Source of the DNA: Leucobacter sp. CX169
GTDB taxonomy: Bacteria; Actinomycetota; Actinomycetes; Actinomycetales; Microbacteriaceae
DNA: 64,000 nt
Assembly (NCBI RefSeq): GCF_017161405.1
Contig: NZ_CP071051.1
Coordinates: forward strand, 2,790,001 to 2,854,000
Reading direction: 5' to 3'
Positions 4,869 to 56,901 of this stretch are shown in pieces (position 1 is the first letter of the stretch; each line of letters starts with the position of its first letter). The translations under genes and the position numbers were made by a program. The notes beneath the pieces were generated by a model. The model did not search any database. It saw only the letters and a program-made list of their open reading frames with translations, and had not been told where the DNA came from.

Positions 4869-5219
4869 ATGCGATACCTCCTCTTGGCCAGCGAGCCCGA
4901 GACCCCGCAGCACCACACCGACTCGTGGGCCGTGCACATCGAGGCGGCCGTTGCCTTCTGCGCACAGCTGGAAGACGAGCTCGCGGCCAGCTCCGAGCTC
5001 GAATGGTCCGAGGTGCTCGCGCCGGCGGATCACGCGCGAAGCTTCGCCGCCGACGGTTCGGTGACCGAGGGCACCGCGGGAGCACCCGGGCTCACCCGCC
5101 TGTGGGCGATCCGGGTCGCCGACGCCGCCCGCGCGGCGGAACTCGCAGCGCGCATCGCCCGCGAGCTCACCGCCCGGGTCGAGCTGCGGGAGTGTCTTGC
5201 GGGGGCGCAGCGCCCCTAG
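4869..5219 (+). CDS. YCII/DGPF-domain protein
   Basis: A small protein of 116 residues. The start MRYLLLASEP with a C-terminal segment pairing a conserved Trp (RLWAIRVADAARAAELAARI) resembles YCII-related (DGPF) proteins, small ferredoxin-fold dimers of mostly unknown function, some linked to extracytoplasmic sigma factors. The DGPF motif itself is absent. ATG 4869 is preferred because GGAG lies 6 nt upstream; a TTG at 4857 is in frame but lacks a site. The last four bases overlap the stop of the convergent response regulator gene. No sigma factor gene is adjacent, so no role is assigned. Confidence 0.62.
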   Translation: MRYLLLASEPETPQHHTDSWAVHIEAAVAFCAQLEDELAASSELEWSEVLAPADHARSFAADGSVTEGTAGAPGLTRLWAIRVADAARAAELAARIARELTARVELRECLAGAQRP

Positions 5220-5920
5220 GCTTGGCCCGCGCCCCTGACGCTCGAGGCCACGCCATGCGTGTGGGCCCAGACGATGGCCTGGATGCGGTCGCGCGCGCCG
5301 AGCTTCTGCAGCAGGTTCGAAACGTGGGTCTTGACCGTCGCCTCGCCCACGAAGAGTTGTTCGGCGATCTCGGAGTTCGTCGCCCCGGTCGTGAGCAGCC
5401 TCAGCACGTCTTGTTCGCGATCCGTCAGCCCGGCGGTGGCGAGCGGACCGTCTGCCTGCGACGGGCGCGGCGCTGGGGCGGCATCGCGGGTGGCACGTTC
5501 CATGACGGCGCGGGTCACGTCCGGGCCGAGCAGCGCGCCCCCGGCCGCGAGCGTGCGGACAGCATCGATCAGCTGATCGGCCCGCGCGGTCTTGAGGAGG
5601 AAGCCGCTCACCCCCGCGGCGAGCGCGTCGAAAAGGTACTCCTCGTGCCCAAAGGTGGTGAGGACCAGGATCGCGGGCGTGGGCCGACTTTCCCCCGAGG
5701 CTGCCCCCGCGAGAATCTGCCGCGACGCCTCGATGCCGTTCATCTCGGGCATCTCGACATCCATGCAGATCACGTCGGGCGCGAGCCGCGAGGAGAGCGC
5801 GACCGCCTCGGCACCGTTGGCCGCCTCGCCGACCACGTCGATGTCCGGTTCGGTCTCGAGGATGATGCGGAACCCCGACCGCACGAGCACCTGATCATCG
5901 GCGACGAGCACCCGGATCAT
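5216..5920 (-). CDS. Two-component response regulator, NarL/LuxR family
   Basis: A 234-residue regulator. The receiver domain (residues 1-120) has the acidic pair D8/D9, phosphoacceptor D54 in CMDVEMP and the conserved Lys in LLKTARADQL near 111. A C-terminal LuxR-type HTH follows (LTDREQDVLRLLTTGATNSE then VGEATVKTHVSNLLQKLGAR). Its start overlaps the stop of the upstream histidine kinase gene by 4 bp, so the pair is co-translated. The kinase is divergent from a NatAB-like ABC exporter, which is the most likely regulatory target by context. The inducing signal is unknown. Confidence 0.94.
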   Translation of the reverse strand: MIRVLVADDQVLVRSGFRIILETEPDIDVVGEAANGAEAVALSSRLAPDVICMDVEMPEMNGIEASRQILAGAASGESRPTPAILVLTTFGHEEYLFDALAAGVSGFLLKTARADQLIDAVRTLAAGGALLGPDVTRAVMERATRDAAPAPRPSQADGPLATAGLTDREQDVLRLLTTGATNSEIAEQLFVGEATVKTHVSNLLQKLGARDRIQAIVWAHTHGVASSVRGAGQA

Positions 5921-7287
5921 GCCGTCACCTCAGACGTCGCCGGCAGGCCCGCGTCTGGCAACCCTGCGCCTGGCAGCTCCGAACCAGGCAACACCACGTC
6001 AGGCAGGTCGCCCCGCAGCGGGATCCTGGTCCGCACGAGGAACCCGCCCCGCTCACGGGCGACCGTCTCGACCGTGCCGCCGACCGCTCCCGCGCGCTCG
6101 CGCATACCGCGAAGGCCGAGCCCGCCGCCCCCGCCGTCGCGCGCCGAACCGAGACTCTGCGCCACTCCGGTGTCGCTGATCTCAAGCTCAACGGCACCCG
6201 CTTCAAAGCGCAGCCGGACCGCCGCCTCGGCCCCGCGGCCCGCGTGCTTGCGTACATTGGTGAGCGCCTCTTGCGCGATGCGGTACAGGGCAACGTCCAC
6301 GAGCATCGGCACCGGGCGCGTCTCGCCCGCGACGATCAGGGTGGTCGAGAGCCCGGCGCTCTGCGAGGCCGCGACGAGCGCGGGAAGCTGGGCAATGCCG
6401 ATGGTCGAGGAACGCTCATCGGGCTCGGGCGCACGCAGCGTACCCACGAGCCCGCGGAGTTCCGCGATCGCGGCCTCGGCGCTCGACTCGACGATTTCCA
6501 GCGCCGCGCTCGCCCGCTCGCGCCCCCGCTCGGGGTCTTTCTCGAGCAGGCGTCTTGCCGCAGCCGCCTGGATGCCCATCACCGAGACGTGGTGCGCGAC
6601 CACGTCGTGCAACTCTCGAGCGATCGCGATGCGGTCGAGCGCTACGGCCTGCTCGGCGCTCGTGCGCCGTTCGAGATCGAGCTCGCGGCCCTGCGCCTCG
6701 AGCTGCGCCTGGGTGCGGGCGGCCAGCCACGAGCGCTCCCCGAAGATGAACGCGCCGCCGAAGTACAGCAGGTTCGTGAAAATCTGGATGACCGCGTAGG
6801 TCGCAAACGCCGAGAAGAGCCCGCTGCGTGAGATCCCCGGCAGCGCTTCGGTGTCGGAAGACACGACGATGAGGGACGTCACGAGCCACACCACCATGGC
6901 GACGCTGATGCCGAGCCTGCTCCAGAACGCGAGCGGGCGCCTGGGCTCCCACGCCCCCACCGAGTACAGCGCGATGAAGAGTCCGATGTTCGTGATGAGC
7001 AGTTCGGGGACCCCGAACTGGCCGCAGACGAAGAAGCCCACCGACACCGCGATCGCGACCGGCACGGGCCACCGCCGTCGCGCCACGAGGGGCAGCGTGA
7101 CGAGTCCCAGCCCGAGCACCCACACCCAGGGCTCCGCGGTCTCTGCATAGATGCCGGTGCGCTGGTAGAGCAGCGCACTCGTGATCGCGGCGAGCGCGAG
7201 ACCGAGCGCCAACGCGGCGTCCAGGCGGAGGTCGCTGCGGGTCGGACGAGGCCGAGTCCACTCGCCCGTGTCCCGAGTCGTGATCAT
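5917..7287 (-). CDS. Sensor histidine kinase (HisKA_3 family)
   Basis: About 456 residues. The N-terminal half has five or so membrane segments (for example LDAALALGLALAAITSALL and VPELLITNIGLFIALYSVG) with no large extracytoplasmic domain, which suggests sensing within the membrane. The dimerisation/phosphoacceptor helix has H227 in IARELHDVVAHH and the C-terminal HATPase has its G-box in GGGGLGLRGMRERA. I chose ATG 7287 over an upstream GTG at 7416 because the extra 43 residues are proline- and arginine-rich without homology, and TACGCT lies 7 nt before 7287. It is coupled to the response regulator gene by a 4-bp overlap. Confidence 0.9.
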   Translation of the reverse strand: MITTRDTGEWTRPRPTRSDLRLDAALALGLALAAITSALLYQRTGIYAETAEPWVWVLGLGLVTLPLVARRRWPVPVAIAVSVGFFVCGQFGVPELLITNIGLFIALYSVGAWEPRRPLAFWSRLGISVAMVVWLVTSLIVVSSDTEALPGISRSGLFSAFATYAVIQIFTNLLYFGGAFIFGERSWLAARTQAQLEAQGRELDLERRTSAEQAVALDRIAIARELHDVVAHHVSVMGIQAAAARRLLEKDPERGRERASAALEIVESSAEAAIAELRGLVGTLRAPEPDERSSTIGIAQLPALVAASQSAGLSTTLIVAGETRPVPMLVDVALYRIAQEALTNVRKHAGRGAEAAVRLRFEAGAVELEISDTGVAQSLGSARDGGGGGLGLRGMRERAGAVGGTVETVARERGGFLVRTRIPLRGDLPDVVLPGSELPGAGLPDAGLPATSEVTA

Positions 7288-7294
7288 GCGATCC

Positions 7295-7300
7295 AGCGTA
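7295..7300 (-). promoter_or_regulatory. Putative -10 box of the sensor kinase gene (leaderless)
   Basis: TACGCT on the minus strand ends 7 nt before the ATG at 7287, and no ribosome binding site is present. It lies in the 143-bp divergent spacer shared with the ABC exporter genes. Confidence 0.4.
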
Positions 7301-7430
7301 CCGAGCACCCCGCGGCGGCGGATCCCCCGCGAGGCGGAGACACTCCCCACCGACCGAGGGAAACTCAGCCAGCCGGGGGAAGCGCCGCCCCGACCGCCCT
7401 GCCAGGCTGGACCCAACGAAAGGAACCTTC

Positions 7431-8348
7431 ATGATCGAGATTCAGGGGATCAGCCGTTCGTTCGGCGACCGCCGCGTACTGGACGACGTGAGCTTTGGCG
7501 TCCAGAGCGGCCGCATGACCGGCTTCGTCGGGGGCAATGGTGCGGGAAAGACCACCACGATGCGCATCATCCTCGGGGTGCTCGCGCCCGACTCGGGCAG
7601 CGTCGCGCTGAACGGCACGCCAGTCACGGCGGATGATCGCGCGGGCTTCGGCTACATGCCTGAGGAGCGGGGGCTCTACCCCAAGATGAAGGTGCTTGAG
7701 CAGCTCGTCTACCTGGGCCGCCTGCACGGCATGAGCTCCTCAGCGGCGAAGGCGTCGGCGGAGGGGCTCCTCGACCGCCTCGGCCTCACGGAGCGCGCGA
7801 ACGACACCCTCGAGAGCCTCTCGCTCGGCAACCAGCAACGGGCCCAGATTGCCGCGGCCCTCGTGCACGAGCCCGCCGCCCTCGTGCTCGACGAGCCGTT
7901 CTCTGGCCTCGACCCGATGGCCGTCGAGGTCGTGCTCGGGGTGTTGCGCGACTACGCCGCGGCCGGCGCCCCCGTGCTGTTCTCCTCGCACCAGCTCGAT
8001 ATCGTCGAGCGCCTCTGCGACGACGTGGTCGTCATCGGCGGGGGCAGGATCCTGGCCGCAGGCTCGCGCGAGTCGCTGCGCGCCGAGCACTCGGGGCAAA
8101 GCTACGTGATCGAGCTCGAGGGCCCGAGCGCCGACGCGGGCTGGGTGCGCCAGCAGGCAGGGATCACGGTCACCCACCTCGACGGCGGCACCGCCCGATT
8201 CGATGCCGAGCACCCGCGGGACGCGCAGGCGGTCCTGGCCGCAGCGGTCGCGCAGAGTCAAGGAGCGGACGCCACGGGCATCGCGGTGCGTCGCTTCGGC
8301 CAAGAATTCCCCACGCTCGCCCAGATCTTCAAGGAGGTAGTGCGATGA
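7431..8348 (+). CDS. ABC transporter ATP-binding protein, NatA-like
   Basis: A 305-residue ATPase. Walker A is GGNGAGKT (residues 34-41), the signature is LSLGNQQR, Walker B is ALVLDEPFSGLDP and the switch is SSHQLD. The LSLGNQQR signature and the C-terminal extension of about 90 residues match NatA/YhaQ-type exporters. The ATG is preceded by AAAGGAACCTTC, a good ribosome binding site, and the stop overlaps the permease start by 4 bp. It is divergent from a two-component system, a common layout for stress-induced efflux ABC systems. It is expected to drive export by the ABC-2 permease that follows; the substrate (Na+, peptide or drug) is not determinable. Confidence 0.92.
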   Translation: MIEIQGISRSFGDRRVLDDVSFGVQSGRMTGFVGGNGAGKTTTMRIILGVLAPDSGSVALNGTPVTADDRAGFGYMPEERGLYPKMKVLEQLVYLGRLHGMSSSAAKASAEGLLDRLGLTERANDTLESLSLGNQQRAQIAAALVHEPAALVLDEPFSGLDPMAVEVVLGVLRDYAAAGAPVLFSSHQLDIVERLCDDVVVIGGGRILAAGSRESLRAEHSGQSYVIELEGPSADAGWVRQQAGITVTHLDGGTARFDAEHPRDAQAVLAAAVAQSQGADATGIAVRRFGQEFPTLAQIFKEVVR

Positions 8349-49623: not shown

Positions 49624-50286
49624 CTATTGGGGGTCTCCCACCGCCGCCGTCAACGCGAACAACACGTCCGCCACCCGCTCGCCGAGGTCCGCTGCCGTAG
49701 CGCTTGCGGCGCTACCGCCAGTGAGCACCGCTAGCCGCAGCTCGCGCTCGTAGATGCTCGTGAGGAGCGGCAGGGCCTCGTCCGCCGGAATCAGGAACCT
49801 CCGACCGGCAACCGCGACGATCTGCGCCACGACCTCGGCGAGGTCGGCGACGTACGCGGCCTGGTACCGGAGATAGTCGGGCGCCAGCTCGGGGTCACGC
49901 AGGGCGAGCAAGAGAAACTCCTGCTCAATCACGAACCAATCCGTCTCGAGCGACGAGGCGACGAAGAACTCCCTGATAAAGGCCGCGGCCTCCTCCCGGC
50001 CGATCCCGCTCGCTCGGCACGTCAGCTCGTCTCCGAGCAGCGTCATGCGCGCCTCGAGGTCTTCCGTGCGGCGCCGATACTCGCGAGCGAGCAGCGCGAA
50101 GAAGAGCTCCTCCTTTGAGGAAAAGTTGGAATAGAACGCGCCCCGGGAGAACCCGGCGGCGGCGCAGATCGCTTCAACCGAGGCGCCGCCGAGGCCGAGC
50201 TCGACGCAGACCCCGAAGGCAGCGTCCATCAGGCGCTCCTGGGTCTCCAGGCGACGCGCGCTTACGGGCTTCTGGGGCTCACTCAT
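49624..50286 (-). CDS. TetR-family regulator of the MMPL transporter operon
   Basis: A 220-residue TetR protein. The HTH is RLMDAAFGVCVELGLGGASV then EAICAAAGFSRGAFYSNFSS, and the C-terminal domain is a TetR_C_6-like bundle of unknown ligand. A CACAAT box lies 6 nt before the ATG, with no ribosome binding site except a GGAG abutting the ATG, so the mRNA may be leaderless. It is divergent from the MMPL/YhgE operon with an 87-bp spacer that holds two palindromes, one over its own -10 region and one between the genes. It is therefore inferred to repress both itself and the transporter genes. Confidence 0.9.
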   Translation of the reverse strand: MSEPQKPVSARRLETQERLMDAAFGVCVELGLGGASVEAICAAAGFSRGAFYSNFSSKEELFFALLAREYRRRTEDLEARMTLLGDELTCRASGIGREEAAAFIREFFVASSLETDWFVIEQEFLLLALRDPELAPDYLRYQAAYVADLAEVVAQIVAVAGRRFLIPADEALPLLTSIYERELRLAVLTGGSAASATAADLGERVADVLFALTAAVGDPQ

Positions 50287-50322: not shown

Positions 50323-50348
50323 GTTTGCATACACTCGTGTATCGAAAC
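50323..50348. promoter_or_regulatory. Palindromic TetR operator before the MMPL gene
   Basis: GTTTGCATACAC-TC-GTGTATCGAAAC: two 12-nt arms with only two mismatches, the inner ATACAC/GTGTAT being perfect. It lies 25 bp before the MMPL start, the expected position for the divergent TetR repressor. Confidence 0.75.
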
Positions 50349-50373
50349 CTGAATCGCGCCCCCGAGGAGTCTC

Positions 50374-53256
50374 GTGTCATCTGTGCTGTACTCGCTTGGC
50401 CGCTGGGCCGCCAAGGCGAGATCACTTGTCCTCATCGGCTGGATCGTCATTCTCGCCATCTTCGGCGCGGGCGCGGTGTTCCTCGGACAGGGCGCGAACG
50501 CCCCGATCTCGATCCCCGGCACGGAATCGCAGGCCGCGCTCGATCAGCTCAGCCGCACGTTCCCCGAGGTGAGCGGCGGAAGCGCCCAGGTCATCGTGGT
50601 GAGCCCCGAGGGCACCCGCATCGATTCCTCGCCCTATCCCGACGAGATCGCCCGCACCGCCGACGAGCTGGCGGACCTTGACGGCGTCGCCGCAGTGCAG
50701 TCGCCATTCGGCGGCACCGCGGGCGCGAGCTCCGACAGTGCACTCTCCGAGGACGGCCGCGCCGCGCTCATCTCGATCACCCTCGACGGCACCTCCGTCG
50801 ACGCCCCGCCGGCCACCCTCGAGGGCATCAGCGCGGCCGTCGCGGACCTGCAGGATCGCCTTCCCGAAGGCGCACAGGCGGTCGAGGGCGGCGAGGCCTA
50901 CTCCACCTCGATCCCGGGCATCACTATCACCGAGGCTGTCGGCGTGCTGGTCGCGTTCGTCGTGCTCGTGCTGACCCTGGGCTCGCTGCTCGCGGCCGGC
51001 ATGCCGCTGCTCGCCGCGATCCTGGGCGTCGGGGTGTCGATCGCCGGCCTCTTCTTCGCCACCGCCGTGGTCTCGATCACGTCGATCACCCCGATGCTGG
51101 CGCTCATGCTCGGCCTCGCGGTCGGCATCGACTACACGCTCTTCATCGTCGCGCGCCATCAAGAGCAGATCCGCGACGGCATGCCGATCGAGGAGTCGAT
51201 CGCGCGCGCCACCGCCACCTCGGGCTCCGCTGTGATCTTCGCGGGGCTCACGGTGATCATTGCGCTCGCGGGGCTCGCGGTCGCCGGCATCCCGTTCCTC
51301 ACCGCGCTCGGCCTCGCCGCCGCGGCGGCCGTCGCGATCTCCGTGCTCATCGCGCTCACGCTCACCCCCGCAATCCTCGGCATGGCCGGCATCAAGATCC
51401 TGCCAAAGCGGCAGCGCGCGGCCCTGGCCGCCGGCACGCTTGCGTCCGCGGCCAACGCTCCCGCAGCGGCACCCGTCACGGGCGCACACGGCGCAGGATC
51501 CGGGCCGATCACCGAGCCTTCGAACGCCGCGGCCGGCGTCCCCGCCGCGCCCCGCAAGCCCTTCGCCGACCGCTTCTTCGGCGGCTGGGTCGCCGCGGTC
51601 ACGAAGATTCCGGCGCTCACGATCATCCTCGTGTTGCTCGGCGTCGGCGCCATGGCCGTGCCCGCGCTCGACCTGCGCCTCGCGCTGCCCAACGCCTCGA
51701 GCCTGTCGGAAGACGCCCCCGCGCGCATCAGCTACGAGCTCGTCGGCGAGCACTTCGGCGAGGGCGTGAACGGCCCGCTCCTGCTGACCGGCTCGATCGT
51801 CGCGAGCAACGACCCGCTCGGCCTCATGGAAGACCTCGCCGACGAGGTCCGCCAGGTCCCCGGCGTCGCCGAGGTCCCTCTGTCGACCCCCAACCAGGGC
51901 GCCGACACGGGCATCATCCAGGTGGTCCCCGAGGAAGGCCCGCACGCCGAGAGCACCTCGCAGCTCGTCGATGCGCTGCGCGCCAAGGCGCCCCAGTGGA
52001 GCGAGCAGTACGGCGTCGACCTCGCGGTCACCGGCTTCACCGCCGTCGGCATCGACGTGTCGAAGCTGCTCGGCGAGGCCCTCCTGCCCTTCGGCATCCT
52101 GGTCGTCGGCTTCTCGCTGATCCTGCTCGCCATGGTGTTCCGCTCGGTCTGGGTGCCGATCAAGGCGACCCTCGGCTACCTCCTCTCGGTCGGTGCCGCC
52201 TTCGGCGCCGTCGCCGCGGTCTTCGAGTGGGGCTGGTTCTCCGAGGCCCTGCACGTGGCAAGCCTCGGCCCCGTACTCAGCTTCATGCCGATCATCTTGA
52301 TGGGCGTGCTCTTCGGACTCGCCATGGACTACGAGGTGTTCCTCGTCGCCCGCATCCGCGAAGAGTACGTGCACGGCGCGAGCGCCCGCGACGCGATCCG
52401 GCGCGGCTTCGTCGGATCGGGCAAGGTCGTCACGGCCGCCGCGATCATCATGTTCGCCGTCTTCGCGGCCTTCATCCCCGAGGGCGACGTGAGCATCAAG
52501 CCGATCGCCCTCGGCCTGGCCGTTGGCGTGTTCGTCGACGCCTTCATCGTGCGCATGACGCTCGTGCCCGCGGTGCTCGCGCTGCTCGGCGACCGCGCCT
52601 GGCAGATGCCGCGCTGGCTCGACAAGATTTTGCCGTCGTTCGATGTCGAGGGCGAGGGGCTCAGCCGCGAGCTCGCCCACGCCCACTGGCCCGAGGATCT
52701 GCCCGAGGCACGCATCGCGAGCGAGGGGCTCGAGCTCGTCGCGGCCGACGGCACGCATCGCGTCGCCGATATGCGCGTCGGGCCGGGCGACGCCCTGCTG
52801 CTCTCCCCGCAGGATCCCGCCCACCGCCGCCTGGCCGAGGTGCTGACCGGGCGCGCGCCGATGCTGGTGGGCACCGCCAAGGTTGCCGGCCTCCTCCTGC
52901 CCGAACGGGCGTCGACGCTGCGCCGTCGTGCCGCGCGGACCCAGCTCGCCGGGCTCCGCGAGGCGCTTGCCGACCGGCCCCAACTCCTCGTGCTCGACCT
53001 CGCGCAGCTCGTCCCGACGTCGGAGGCGGCGATCCTGTCCGCCCGCTCGGCGCTCGAGGGTCGCGCGGTCGAGGCCGACCGGGGGGCGGCACCGATGCCC
53101 ACGCTCGTGTTGCTGAGCGACGCGGACACCGCGGCGCGGATCCTGCCCGCTGGCACGCACATCGTGCACGCCGAGACGCGCCCGTTGACCGCACCTGACT
53201 TCGCGGAGAGCTCGCTCCCCGCGGCCACCACTCTCACGGAAGGAGCCGCACGATGA
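50374..53256 (+). CDS. MMPL-family RND transporter with cytosolic ABC-like tail
   Basis: A 960-residue transporter. TM1 (17-37) is followed by a large outer domain, then two bundles (about 180-340 and 560-735) with the proton-relay motif GLAVGIDYTLFIVARHQEQI in the first and GLAMDYEVFLVARIREEYVH in the second, both MMPL hallmarks. The two membrane halves are joined by an Ala/Pro-rich linker near 350-390. Residues 750-960 form a long cytosolic tail. It contains GPGDALLLSPQDPAHRRLAE and PQLLVLDLAQLVPTSEAAIL, resembling eroded Walker A and Walker B surroundings of an ABC ATPase. The start is GTG behind GAGGAG. The stop overlaps the YhgE-like gene by 4 bp. It probably exports a lipid or hydrophobic compound. 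Confidence 0.9.
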   Translation: MSSVLYSLGRWAAKARSLVLIGWIVILAIFGAGAVFLGQGANAPISIPGTESQAALDQLSRTFPEVSGGSAQVIVVSPEGTRIDSSPYPDEIARTADELADLDGVAAVQSPFGGTAGASSDSALSEDGRAALISITLDGTSVDAPPATLEGISAAVADLQDRLPEGAQAVEGGEAYSTSIPGITITEAVGVLVAFVVLVLTLGSLLAAGMPLLAAILGVGVSIAGLFFATAVVSITSITPMLALMLGLAVGIDYTLFIVARHQEQIRDGMPIEESIARATATSGSAVIFAGLTVIIALAGLAVAGIPFLTALGLAAAAAVAISVLIALTLTPAILGMAGIKILPKRQRAALAAGTLASAANAPAAAPVTGAHGAGSGPITEPSNAAAGVPAAPRKPFADRFFGGWVAAVTKIPALTIILVLLGVGAMAVPALDLRLALPNASSLSEDAPARISYELVGEHFGEGVNGPLLLTGSIVASNDPLGLMEDLADEVRQVPGVAEVPLSTPNQGADTGIIQVVPEEGPHAESTSQLVDALRAKAPQWSEQYGVDLAVTGFTAVGIDVSKLLGEALLPFGILVVGFSLILLAMVFRSVWVPIKATLGYLLSVGAAFGAVAAVFEWGWFSEALHVASLGPVLSFMPIILMGVLFGLAMDYEVFLVARIREEYVHGASARDAIRRGFVGSGKVVTAAAIIMFAVFAAFIPEGDVSIKPIALGLAVGVFVDAFIVRMTLVPAVLALLGDRAWQMPRWLDKILPSFDVEGEGLSRELAHAHWPEDLPEARIASEGLELVAADGTHRVADMRVGPGDALLLSPQDPAHRRLAEVLTGRAPMLVGTAKVAGLLLPERASTLRRRAARTQLAGLREALADRPQLLVLDLAQLVPTSEAAILSARSALEGRAVEADRGAAPMPTLVLLSDADTAARILPAGTHIVHAETRPLTAPDFAESSLPAATTLTEGAAR

Positions 53257-55490
53257 GCGGCCTCGCCTCGAACCGCCGGCTCGGATGGAAGGCGGTGCTC
53301 GGCATCCTTCTGGTGCCCCTCACGATCGCCGGCCTGTTCATCTGGGGCCTCTGGAGCCCAACCGAACGCCTGCGTTCTGTCGAGGCCGCCGTCGTGAACC
53401 TCGATGTGCCGGTCGAGATCGACGGGCAGCTGACCCCGCTCGGCCGCGTCTTCGCGGGTGCGCTCGTGGGTGACTCGACCGTGGCTGACGACGAGACGAA
53501 CTTCACCTGGCACCTGACAAACGCGGAGGACGCCGCCGAGGGGCTCGACGAGGGCCGCTACTCGACCGTCGTCACGATCCCCGAGAACTTCTCGGCGGCC
53601 GCCACCTCGGGCGGAGACCCCGACACGGCCGAGCAGGCCACGATCGACATCGCGACGAGTGACCGCGGTCGCCTGATCGACTCGGCGCTCTCCAACGTCG
53701 TCACGAGCACCGCGACGCGCGTGCTCAACGAGCAGCTCGGCACGGCGTTCATTGACCAGGTGTTCGTCGGCATGGGGACGCTCCACACGAGCCTCGGCGA
53801 GGCCGCGGACGGCGCGGACAAGCTCGCGGACGGGTCGCACCAGCTGGCGACCGGCACGAGCGGTATTGCCGACGGTGCCGGAGCGCTCGCTTCGGGTGCA
53901 GGGCAGCTGTCGAGCGGGGCAAACGCTCTCGCCGGCGGCGTGGGCGGCATCGCTTCGGGCATGGGCGAGTACGCCAATGGGGTCACTGCCCTGGCTGGCG
54001 GTGCGGCGCAGGCTGCCGACGGCACGGAGAAGTATGTGGCAGGCGTCGGACAGCTGGTGGACGGGCTGCGTACTGCGCTTGCGCCCATCACCCAGGCGAT
54101 TACCGCCGCAAAGGACGCGATCGACAATCTGCAGATCGACCCCGCGACTGGGCTGCCCGTCGGCATGCCCGACCCGACCGCGCAGACCACCCTGCTGGGT
54201 GCGCAGCTCGCTGAGTTGCAAGGCTCGCTCGGCTCTGCCTCCGGTGGTGGCGCGCAGCTGAACGGCCTGGTCGCCGAGTGCGCGACTTCGGGCGCGAGCG
54301 AAGACTTCTGCGCCCGCCTTGCCGCTGCCACGTCCGCGACGAACAACTCGGTCGCTGCTGCGCAGACGCAGGCCGGCGCTGCCACGGCGACGCAGCAGCA
54401 GCTCGCGGTCGAGATGCAGGTCATCAAACAGACCATCCAGACCTCGGTTGCTGCCGTTTCAGCCGCCCGCCCCCAGCTGGATCAGCTTGAACAGCAGCTC
54501 GGCGGCTTGGACGCCCAGCTGGCGCAGCTCACGGCGGCTGGACCCCAGGTTGCTGCAGGTAGCCGTGGCATCGCGAACGGCGTTGGTGCGCTTGCAGCGA
54601 GTGGGCAAGAGCTTGCTGGCGGCGCGGGGGCACTCGCAACCGGCGCGGGCGAGCTCGCGGCGGGCACCCCGGCATTGGCTGATGGAGCGGCTCAGCTCGC
54701 CGACGGCGCCGCCCAGCTCGCGGAGGGCGCAGAGCAGGCCGCGACCGGCACCGATACCCTCGCGAGCGGGCTGGGCCAGGCGGTCGACGGTGTGCCGAAC
54801 TACACCGAGAGCCAGCGCGACGCGCTCGCCCGGGCGGCGCTCACCCCCGTGGTCGCCACAGGCAGCGGCGACGAGCTATTCAACGCCGCCGGGGTTCCGC
54901 TATTCACCGGCATCGCGCTGTGGGCCGGCGGGCTCGCGAGCTTCCTGATATTGAGCCCCCTCTGGCGCCGCACGCGCGAGGCCGCGCGCGGCCTCGGCGC
55001 CATCACGCTGCGGAGCGCCCTTCCCGGCTTCCTTGCGGGCGCGGCGCAGGGCGCCATCGTCGGCCTCGCCATGCCGATCGCGCTCGGCCTCGACCTGCCG
55101 GCGACGCTCGCGTTCCTCGGCTTCGGCGTGCTGGCCGGCGTGGCCTTCGCGCTCGTGAACCAGGGGCTCGCCGCGCTGCTCGGCGGCTTCGGCCGATTCC
55201 TGTCGTTCGTGACGCTGGTCATCGCGTTCGCGGGCGGCATCGTCTCGACCGCGCCTGCGATGCTCAGAGCCATCGGCGACGCCACCCCCATCGGGGCCGC
55301 GTTCTCGGGCTTCCAAGCGATCGCGTCGGGGGCAGCCGGGGCAGGGGGCGCGGCAGCACTGCTCGTGCTCTGGGGGCTCGTGGGCCTCGCGCTCACCGGC
55401 TTCGCCGCCGCGCGGGCGCGCACGTCAGACCGCACCTCGGCCGCCGAGCCGGCCCCGGTGGTCGCAGCTCGAGCGCTGCAGCACGCGTAG
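53253..55490 (+). CDS. YhgE/Pip-type membrane protein (ABC-2-like)
   Basis: A 745-residue protein with one N-terminal helix (about 11-34), a long outer region and 5-6 C-terminal helices (about 550-735) of ABC-2/DUF3533 type. The outer region has two blocks of Gly/Ala-rich 7-residue repeats (LADGA, LAxGA, GAGxLAxGA), near 180-270 and 430-510, typical of phage infection protein (Pip)/YhgE. They probably form a long periplasmic-side or cell-wall-spanning helical stalk. Between the blocks is a Gln-rich coiled-coil region. The start overlaps the MMPL stop by 4 bp, so both are coupled and probably work as one machine. A strong terminator follows. Confidence 0.88.
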   Translation: MSGLASNRRLGWKAVLGILLVPLTIAGLFIWGLWSPTERLRSVEAAVVNLDVPVEIDGQLTPLGRVFAGALVGDSTVADDETNFTWHLTNAEDAAEGLDEGRYSTVVTIPENFSAAATSGGDPDTAEQATIDIATSDRGRLIDSALSNVVTSTATRVLNEQLGTAFIDQVFVGMGTLHTSLGEAADGADKLADGSHQLATGTSGIADGAGALASGAGQLSSGANALAGGVGGIASGMGEYANGVTALAGGAAQAADGTEKYVAGVGQLVDGLRTALAPITQAITAAKDAIDNLQIDPATGLPVGMPDPTAQTTLLGAQLAELQGSLGSASGGGAQLNGLVAECATSGASEDFCARLAAATSATNNSVAAAQTQAGAATATQQQLAVEMQVIKQTIQTSVAAVSAARPQLDQLEQQLGGLDAQLAQLTAAGPQVAAGSRGIANGVGALAASGQELAGGAGALATGAGELAAGTPALADGAAQLADGAAQLAEGAEQAATGTDTLASGLGQAVDGVPNYTESQRDALARAALTPVVATGSGDELFNAAGVPLFTGIALWAGGLASFLILSPLWRRTREAARGLGAITLRSALPGFLAGAAQGAIVGLAMPIALGLDLPATLAFLGFGVLAGVAFALVNQGLAALLGGFGRFLSFVTLVIAFAGGIVSTAPAMLRAIGDATPIGAAFSGFQAIASGAAGAGGAAALLVLWGLVGLALTGFAAARARTSDRTSAAEPAPVVAARALQHA

Positions 55491-55584: not shown

Positions 55585-56901
55585 CTAGGCCGCCGCAACT
55601 CCCGTTTCAACCTTGACCGGCTTGGTCGGCTGAACGACGGGCTTCGCGAAGTTCGTCGTCTGGTTGTTGAACGTGACCGAGCTGACGGTCGCGTTCTGAT
55701 CGATGTTCACGTAGAAGCCGAAACCGATGACGTCGTGGACACCAACCGCTGCGACGAACTGATCGAGCGTGAACAGCGAGTTTGCGTCGGCCAGCTTGAT
55801 GGTCTTCGCGTCATCGGCCCAGATCGGGCTCGAGGTCGACCAGAGCGCGTTCGGGTCACCCAGATCCATCGCGTTATCCAGGCGGATGGTGGTGAAGCTC
55901 TCCGCACCTGCGCGGTTACCGCTCGGGTAGTAGAACACCGGGACCTGCGTGGCCACGGGGCCGGTGGCGTGGACGACGTCCACCTTCATATCCGCGGCGG
56001 CGCTCAGGCAGTTCGCCTGGAACTCAGCAGGGTCGGCGAGACCGTTGAGGATCTGCGCGTTGCCCGTGACCGCCAAGCCGGCCTCGGTGGTCACGAAGTT
56101 CTTGACGGTCTCCGTCTTGGTCAGGCCGTTGTGCCAACCCGGGTAGGCCGCCTCGTTCGGGCGGATGTTGGCCGCATCGACGAAGGTCGCCGACGCCGCG
56201 TTCGGCACGCAGCTCGGGATGGCCGGCGCAAACTGCGTCGTGCTCCCGTTCCCCGTGAAGGAGTTCACCTGGACACCGGCCGCGCCCGCCTCGATCAGGA
56301 AGCCGGTCGCGATCGCGCGGGGGTCGGAGCCCACCGGCGTCGCTGAGGGGTCCTCGCCGAGTGCGGCGAGCAAGGTAGCCATCGGGGTGGGCGTGTTTGC
56401 GGCCACCGTCCCCCCGATCGCCTGGCTTGAGATCCAGTCTCCGCCCGTCGCGGCGTTCTTGCGCAGCGTGGTGAACTTCCAAGGATTCACGGCAAGGGCG
56501 TCAAAACCGTAGAACACCGGTACCTGGTAGAAGACCCGCGAGGCGTCCAACCCGGCATTGACGTTCACGCCGTTCAGTGTGTCCTCGAGCGACATGGCAG
56601 GGGCCGTTCCGCCGGCAACATTGTTGTTTCCGTTGCCCACAACGGCGATCGATCGATCGGCGGCAGCGAAAACGAGGCCGCTTCCCCCCTGGGTCGCGCG
56701 CCCCGGGTAGCTCGCGCTGGGGCTGTAGTGCCACTCGTTGTACGCGGCCGTTTCAGAGGTCGGGTCGGTCGTGACCACGATGTCCGAGGCAAGCACCACC
56801 CCGCCCGCGGGAGCCGCACTTGCGGACGTCGTGGTCAGCGCAATGCCGCCCAGTGCGAGTGAGGCGGTGGCGATGCCCGCCAGTGCACGTCGTAGTGCCA
56901 T
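55585..56901 (-). CDS. Secreted protein of unknown function with duplicated QVPVFY module
   Basis: A 438-residue protein. A Sec signal peptide (MALRRALAGIATASLALGG, cleavage near TSASAAPA at 27-30) is followed by a mature region with no membrane anchor or LPXTG. It contains two copies of a module: QVPVFYGFDALAVNPWKFTT (about 125-145) and QVPVFYYPSGNRAGAESFTT (about 310-330). Each is followed by LR or IR and Asn/Ala-rich sequence, so the protein looks like an internal duplication. AAGGGGAACCC precedes the ATG. I recognise no family; it could be a cell-surface or adhesion protein. It is next to, but transcribed after, two glycosyltransferase genes on the same strand. Confidence 0.75.
   Translation of the reverse strand: MALRRALAGIATASLALGGIALTTTSASAAPAGGVVLASDIVVTTDPTSETAAYNEWHYSPSASYPGRATQGGSGLVFAAADRSIAVVGNGNNNVAGGTAPAMSLEDTLNGVNVNAGLDASRVFYQVPVFYGFDALAVNPWKFTTLRKNAATGGDWISSQAIGGTVAANTPTPMATLLAALGEDPSATPVGSDPRAIATGFLIEAGAAGVQVNSFTGNGSTTQFAPAIPSCVPNAASATFVDAANIRPNEAAYPGWHNGLTKTETVKNFVTTEAGLAVTGNAQILNGLADPAEFQANCLSAAADMKVDVVHATGPVATQVPVFYYPSGNRAGAESFTTIRLDNAMDLGDPNALWSTSSPIWADDAKTIKLADANSLFTLDQFVAAVGVHDVIGFGFYVNIDQNATVSSVTFNNQTTNFAKPVVQPTKPVKVETGVAAA

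Follow-up and report, generated by a model that had tools for sequence, protein, structure and literature searches.

Organization and regulation of the locus

The window, that is, the whole 64-kb stretch of DNA analysed (G000:C1:2790001-2854000, in a genome of 2.94 Mb), contains an MMPL-family RND transporter gene followed by a gene for a YhgE/Pip family protein and preceded by a divergently oriented gene for a TetR-family regulator. The coordinates of TetR, MMPL and YhgE were confirmed, as was the 4-bp overlap of the latter two genes, whose junction is ATGA. The features of the locus are the following.

49624-50286, minus strand: TetR-family regulator (Pfam TetR_N, 8.1e-12), divergent from the MMPL-YhgE operon
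50328-50343, no strand assigned: candidate TetR operator CATACACTCGTGTATC, consensus GATACACNNGTGTATC
50374-53256, plus strand: MMPL-family RND transporter with C-terminal tail, 960 aa, GTG start (Pfam MMPL, 6.6e-83)
51130-51135, plus strand: first Asp-Tyr pair of MMPL, D253-Y254
52327-52332, plus strand: second Asp-Tyr pair of MMPL, D652-Y653
52576-52701, plus strand: linker after the last MMPL helix, residues 735-776
52702-53187, plus strand: pseudo-NBD, residues 777-938, an ABC-type nucleotide-binding core without helical subdomain (model aligned to ABC domains)
52804-52830, plus strand: Walker A remains SPQDPAHRR
52984-53001, plus strand: Walker B remains LLVLDL
53253-55490, plus strand: YhgE/Pip family protein, 745 aa (TIGR03061, 1.2e-30; TIGR03062, 1e-17)
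53799-54791, plus strand: heptad-repeat helices (xxxLxxG) of YhgE, residues about 183-513
54864-55433, plus strand: ABC-2 membrane domain of YhgE, residues 538-727
54957-55019, plus strand: first intracellular loop of that domain, residues 569-589

The convergent neighbour at 55585-56901 (minus strand) encodes a protein of 438 aa whose N terminus is signal-like.

Control of the operon by the TetR-family protein, which the sequence-only reading had claimed, is well supported by comparison of the upstream regions. A TetR homologue lies upstream of MMPL on the opposite strand in 38 of 60 relatives, and GATACACNNGTGTATC, with at most two mismatches, is kept upstream of MMPL in 37 of these 38 TetR-linked loci. 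The motif was found upstream of MMPL in none of the 22 loci without TetR and not once in shuffled sequences. Its sole match in the 64-kb window, with one mismatch, is the candidate operator at 50328-50343. The long-tail loci L078, L082, L083, L085-L091 and L093-L098 (see below) contain neither a homologue of the window's TetR nor a copy of the operator.

The MMPL protein affiliates with the MMPL transporters by two MMPL stretches, by a family score above the cut-off and by both Asp-Tyr pairs. Its best relative in the PDB is MmpL3 (7nvh, 1.2e-50), with which it shares the two pairs: the first aligns to the motif IDY and the second to DYEVFLV of MmpL3, and D and Y are present at both places in 61/61 aligned proteins. 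D253-Y254 presumably corresponds to the proton relay in MmpL3, and the proton-relay residues of MMPL are intact in the alignment. The stretches matched by MmpL3 structures stop at residues 752-754 (752 for the best match), short of the pseudo-NBD.

An eroded ABC-type domain at the C terminus of MMPL

The sequence-only reading had proposed that the roughly 210 residues following the last MMPL helix form an ABC ATPase core that has lost Walker A and the catalytic residues. The motifs concerned begin at MMPL residues 803 (GPGDALLL), 837 (VAGLLLPE), 865 (LADRPQLLVLD) and 911 (LVLLSDADT). Taken alone, the window's tail gave no Pfam or NCBIfam match up to E 1. A profile built from 61 tails matched 447 PDB sequences at E <=0.1, the top match being ABCA3 (1.6e-16); among the best 60 of these 447, we take 59 to be ABC proteins by their names, and one is labelled Lipase B. 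Individually, 11 of the 61 tails match Pfam ABC_tran and nine match the AAA family, the window's tail matching neither. The tail of relative L049 displays the ABC motifs openly, with GPHRSGKSALLLTLAGR and, later, VLVLDDVD.

The structure prediction that had been suggested for the tail, followed by a search against ABC domains, points in the same direction. The model, built with 74 relatives, is compact and confident (pLDDT 89.3, pTM 0.81). It matches ABCA1 with Z 12.5 (3.2 A over 152 residues) and 4yer with Z 12.0 (2.9 A over 151 residues), the ABC domains aligning over model residues 43-204. All of the best 50 structural matches by Z are presumably ABC systems, going by their titles or by general knowledge. 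Foldseek returned a best E of 1.1e-6, and on the same footing we take 48 of its best 50 matches to be ABC systems; the two others, 7ekl and 7ekm, carry the title mitochondrial outer membrane protein. The identity of the tail as an eroded ABC-type nucleotide-binding domain is hence considered secure on profile and predicted structure.

Two classes of tail were distinguished. The short class, to which the window belongs, comprises about 200-250 residues from residue 735 and has the helical subdomain deleted that normally sits between the Q-loop and Walker B strands. Tails of the long class, about 260-310 residues, retain a degenerate helical (signature) subdomain. The core motifs of an ABC ATPase are thus present as initially read, but their spacing in the window departs from that of a complete ABC domain. 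Most of the invariant columns in the linker-plus-tail alignments lie in the linker.

Loss of the catalytic residues

Catalytic columns were compared between 15 control ABC domains and 165 domains that partner YhgE, namely the window's tail, two partly overlapping sets of 64 and 74 fused tails, and 26 free-standing partners. In the controls, the Walker A Lys, the Q-loop Gln, the Walker B Asp, the catalytic Glu and SGG were each found in 15/15 and the H-loop His in 14/15. The partner domains had the catalytic Glu and SGG in 0/165 each, and the Gln and the His in 1/165 each. The Walker A Lys is kept in 8/64 and 2/74 fused tails and in 2/26 free partners, and the Walker B Asp in 57/64 and 66/74 fused tails and 16/26 free partners.

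The window's tail lacks the Walker A Lys, Q-loop Gln, signature, catalytic Glu and H-loop His of a functional ABC ATPase. The remains of its Walker A, SPQDPAHRR, have lost the Lys and the glycines and carry a His in the Lys column; in the Walker B remains, Asp875 is kept and a Leu occupies the catalytic Glu column. As far as these columns tell, the domain has lost the ability to hydrolyse ATP, and the loss of Walker A and of the catalytic residues that had been read from the window alone is confirmed by the counts against the 15 controls. The tail motifs differ stepwise among the relatives, and by its residues the window's tail is the far end of this erosion series. The least eroded fused tails, L099 and L240 from another family of the class, are of full length and have an intact Walker A, GPSGSGKT.

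Among the free partners, the Glu, Gln, His and SGG are absent in 26/26, and Arg is the commonest residue in the Walker A Lys column (14/26). Three free YhgE partners within the window's family, L229, L230 and L216, have no Walker A though they are unfused. The earlier proposal that a YhgE exporter lost its ATP drive is supported as far as the eroded tail goes, but since the free partners are already without these residues, the loss of normal ATP drive need not stem from the fusion.

The YhgE protein

The TIGR03061 model scores 106.3 bits against the window's YhgE (cut-off 96.15), and TIGR03062 scores 64.4 bits (cut-off 102.2), so the protein is a diverged member of the YhgE/Pip family by its N-terminal half. 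A further match, to the EsaA N-terminal model, stays under the cut-off of that model. The central heptad repeats (TIGR03057, 3.2e-22) are modelled as long helices, in part with low confidence, and are taken to be extracellular.

The structural model of YhgE is of moderate quality (pLDDT 76.6, pTM 0.52), and the best Foldseek match to it is weak (E 7.5e-3). Its C-terminal part nevertheless adopts an ABCG-type fold and aligns with ABCG2 (6hco) with Z 15.3 at 2.8 A over 188 residues, in agreement with the ABC-2-like membrane domain assigned earlier. The ABC-2 reading draws on this alignment of a predicted structure, on Pfam ABC-2 matches below the cut-off and on the names of the family.

Residues 569-589, the first intracellular loop, stand at what we take to be the ABCG coupling-helix position. 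When the 26 rows of the Leucobacter lineage to which the window belongs are compared with the 25 remaining ones, identity in this loop is 24%, against 79% within the former and 46% within the latter group. The shift of 0.389 is the largest, and lineage-specific, among 563 overlapping windows along YhgE (median 0.119, SD 0.077). It reflects one lineage event, the difference had been noticed in the alignment before the scan, and the comparison group included, unseparated, Leifsonia and Promicromonospora, in which Walker A is also lost. The shift is consistent with a partner surface that changed where the P-loop is most altered, a circumstantial hint.

Distribution and linkage of the two genes

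A protein search with the tail found it in 85 of 150 genomes of the window's family, nearly all in frames of more than 900 aa. This is probably a lower bound because G023 and G034, which have no listed tail match, have MMPL frames of 970 and 1223 aa, each with a YhgE downstream. A survey of MMPL-YhgE pairs for the tail, as the sequence-only reading had proposed, gave a nearly invariable association: a YhgE homologue follows the tail-bearing MMPL in 60/60 loci read in a first set and in 77/80 of a second (the best 80 of 266), the three misses (L149, L180 and L195) running into a contig end. The two sets overlap partly and are not summed as species; the second includes Leucobacter, Leifsonia, Rathayibacter, Plantibacter, Promicromonospora, Cellulosimicrobium, Cellulomonas, Microbacterium and others. 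In all 137 linked loci YhgE lies on the same strand and starts no more than 200 bases from where MMPL ends. Three of the 80 MMPL proteins in the second set had no linker pattern and three were incomplete, leaving 74 tails aligned beside the window.

Length of MMPL and presence of YhgE also go together. Among the matches listed in 30 relatives (78 MMPL and 53 YhgE places, one row per protein chosen by eye), 26/26 MMPL proteins with a downstream YhgE have frames of at least 918 aa, and 47/52 without one are shorter than 900 aa.

Free-standing relatives and origin of the tail

Searched against 296 genomes of the phylum, the tail profile matched 286, mostly through ordinary ABC ATPases, a result uninformative on the spread of the tail itself. 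The ten best free-standing relatives among the matches listed all adjoin a YhgE gene, as do 14 of the 17 examined, i.e. the ten best and a selection that passed over G378, G423, G272, G346, G322, G344, G396 and lower-scoring ones. No adjoining YhgE was found for the three others, L112, L116 and L117; the sole YhgE signal at L116, which has ordinary ABC motifs, was one of 19.7 bits in a frame that overlaps it. The window's own genome encodes a second pair (L107, G000:C1:459375-469929) composed of a free degenerate ABC-like protein (4944-5735 of that locus, 263 aa; 33.9 bits to ABC_tran) and a YhgE frame (5501-7951, 816 aa). Of 118 genomes of the class, 25 contain YhgE above the family cut-off. 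All 29 such matches have a tail-type domain directly upstream, 23 as a free protein and six as an MMPL tail; YhgE-like matches below the cut-off mostly stand alone.

In a tree of 57 chosen ABC domains, the YhgE partners (42, both free and fused, the window's tail among them) form one clade (support 100/99) apart from 15 ordinary ABC domains. Within it the fused tails take three positions: a short group (99/98), a long group (100/99) and L099 with L240. A single clade of all fused tails gave p-AU 0.25, and 0.35 without the L099 kind, so that by this test a single origin of the fusions is not rejected. In a quick YhgE tree, calculated without bootstrap and with L085 on a long branch, one branch divides the MMPL-linked (23) from the free-ABC-linked proteins (26) with SH-aLRT 99. 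Together, the neighbourhoods, the ABC clade and the YhgE split indicate that tail and YhgE travelled together, and the kinship of the tail with the YhgE-partner ABC domains is regarded as secure on these phylogenies.

Proposed function and alternatives

The most likely explanation, with a probability of roughly 0.55, is that MMPL acquired the ABC-type partner domain of YhgE and that this domain serves as a docking or coupling piece in an export operon. The dead ABC domain would sit below the membrane and bind the intracellular loop of YhgE, presumably like its free-standing relatives, and in this way link YhgE, long helical arm included, to the pump driven by protons. A cargo of amphiphilic nature, lipid-like or membrane-toxic, would be lifted from the membrane by MMPL, and YhgE would take it over or hand it on at the wall. 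The contact between tail and YhgE, the direction of energy flow and the cargo are inferred. In ordinary ABC transporters the helical subdomain helps to hold the coupling helix; its deletion in the window and the short class counts against the proposal and means that docking must use another surface. The hybrid exporter envisaged in the sequence-only reading, in which the proton-driven motion of the RND part would pass through the dead ABC domain to the ABC-2 coupling loop and proton force would power an ABC-type exporter, is possible but less probable; it would amount to a class of hybrid transporters. More broadly, coupling rather than ATP hydrolysis may be the task of all actinobacterial YhgE-partner ABC proteins.

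The evidence from linkage and fold would equally fit a tail that just holds YhgE beside MMPL without passing on motion or energy, the two proteins working independently or YhgE forming a conduit through the wall. The deleted helical subdomain and the lost catalytic residues suit such a tether well. The loop of YhgE that would receive motion is, however, most shifted where Walker A is most altered, which exceeds the need of a bare anchor, and we regard passive holding as a possible but tentative alternative. The tail might instead gate the pump by binding nucleotide without hydrolysing it, as the Walker A Lys in 8/64 and 2/74 and the Walker B Asp in 57/64 and 66/74 fused tails, together with the GPSGSGKT of L099 and L240, would allow. 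Since the whole P-loop is lost in the window, this sensor role could apply to some relatives only and is improbable here.

A fused ABC domain that lost its function and is drifting would account for the stepwise differences of the motifs among relatives and for the pace of tail evolution. Median dN/dS of the tail core was 0.49 in Leucobacter, 0.28 in Leifsonia, 0.30 in Rathayibacter and 0.20 in Promicromonospora, compared with 0.25, 0.20, 0.16 and 0.14 for the MMPL core. The tail is thus constrained, as far as substitution rates tell, but more loosely than the core, most so in Leucobacter. Faster evolution is what relaxed constraint would give and counts against a coupling piece. In-frame TGA codons within the tail-matched stretch of L047 (G119) and L072 (G052), which may be gene ends or breaks, also suit a vestige and likewise speak against a coupling piece. 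Nonetheless, dN/dS of the tail is below 1 in each counted pair (maximum 0.874), a compact fold with pLDDT of 89 is predicted from the tail's own alignment, and the tail occurs in the 85 family genomes counted above, all of which make a drifting remnant highly improbable.

Comparison with known systems

ABC and RND transporters are conventionally presented as distinct machines, each with a fuel of its own. At this locus, components of the two kinds are passed on jointly across genera, with a dead ATP engine and intact proton-relay residues, an arrangement suggesting the merger of two usually separate transporter types into a single machine. The window's system resembles ABCG2 in the fold of the membrane domain and in having an ABC-type partner domain; it differs in a partner without catalytic residues and in the long helical insert after the first helix of YhgE. 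With the YhgE/Pip family, the window's YhgE shares the N-terminal model, the heptad repeats and the C-terminal membrane domain, and it differs by a C-terminal model below the cut-off and by a partner ABC domain that is fused to MMPL rather than free. Proteins of this family are known mostly as phage receptors, and in the actinomycetes they hereby gain a defined partner domain.

In degenerate-site ABC exporters, one site of the pair remains active. These exporters, reviewed in PMC7756269, keep an impaired ABC domain as a working part, a likeness to the window's tail. Unlike in them, the catalytic Glu is missing from every YhgE-partner domain (0/165). In the accessible portions of the open-licence literature no description of an MMPL with an ABC-type tail was found; by this measure the fusion of MMPL with a pseudo-NBD appears new, the kinds of transporter involved being already known. 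YhgE/Pip and MmpL4 are named just as separate recombination hotspots in the accessible part of PMC12584985. The sole functional hint found is a joint rise in Saccharopolyspora hirsuta, where, by the accessible part of PMC9782250, a YhgE/Pip gene and an MMPL gene with neighbouring locus tags, the latter known as a family member only, were up-regulated 3.82-fold and 3.33-fold, respectively, with cholesterol.
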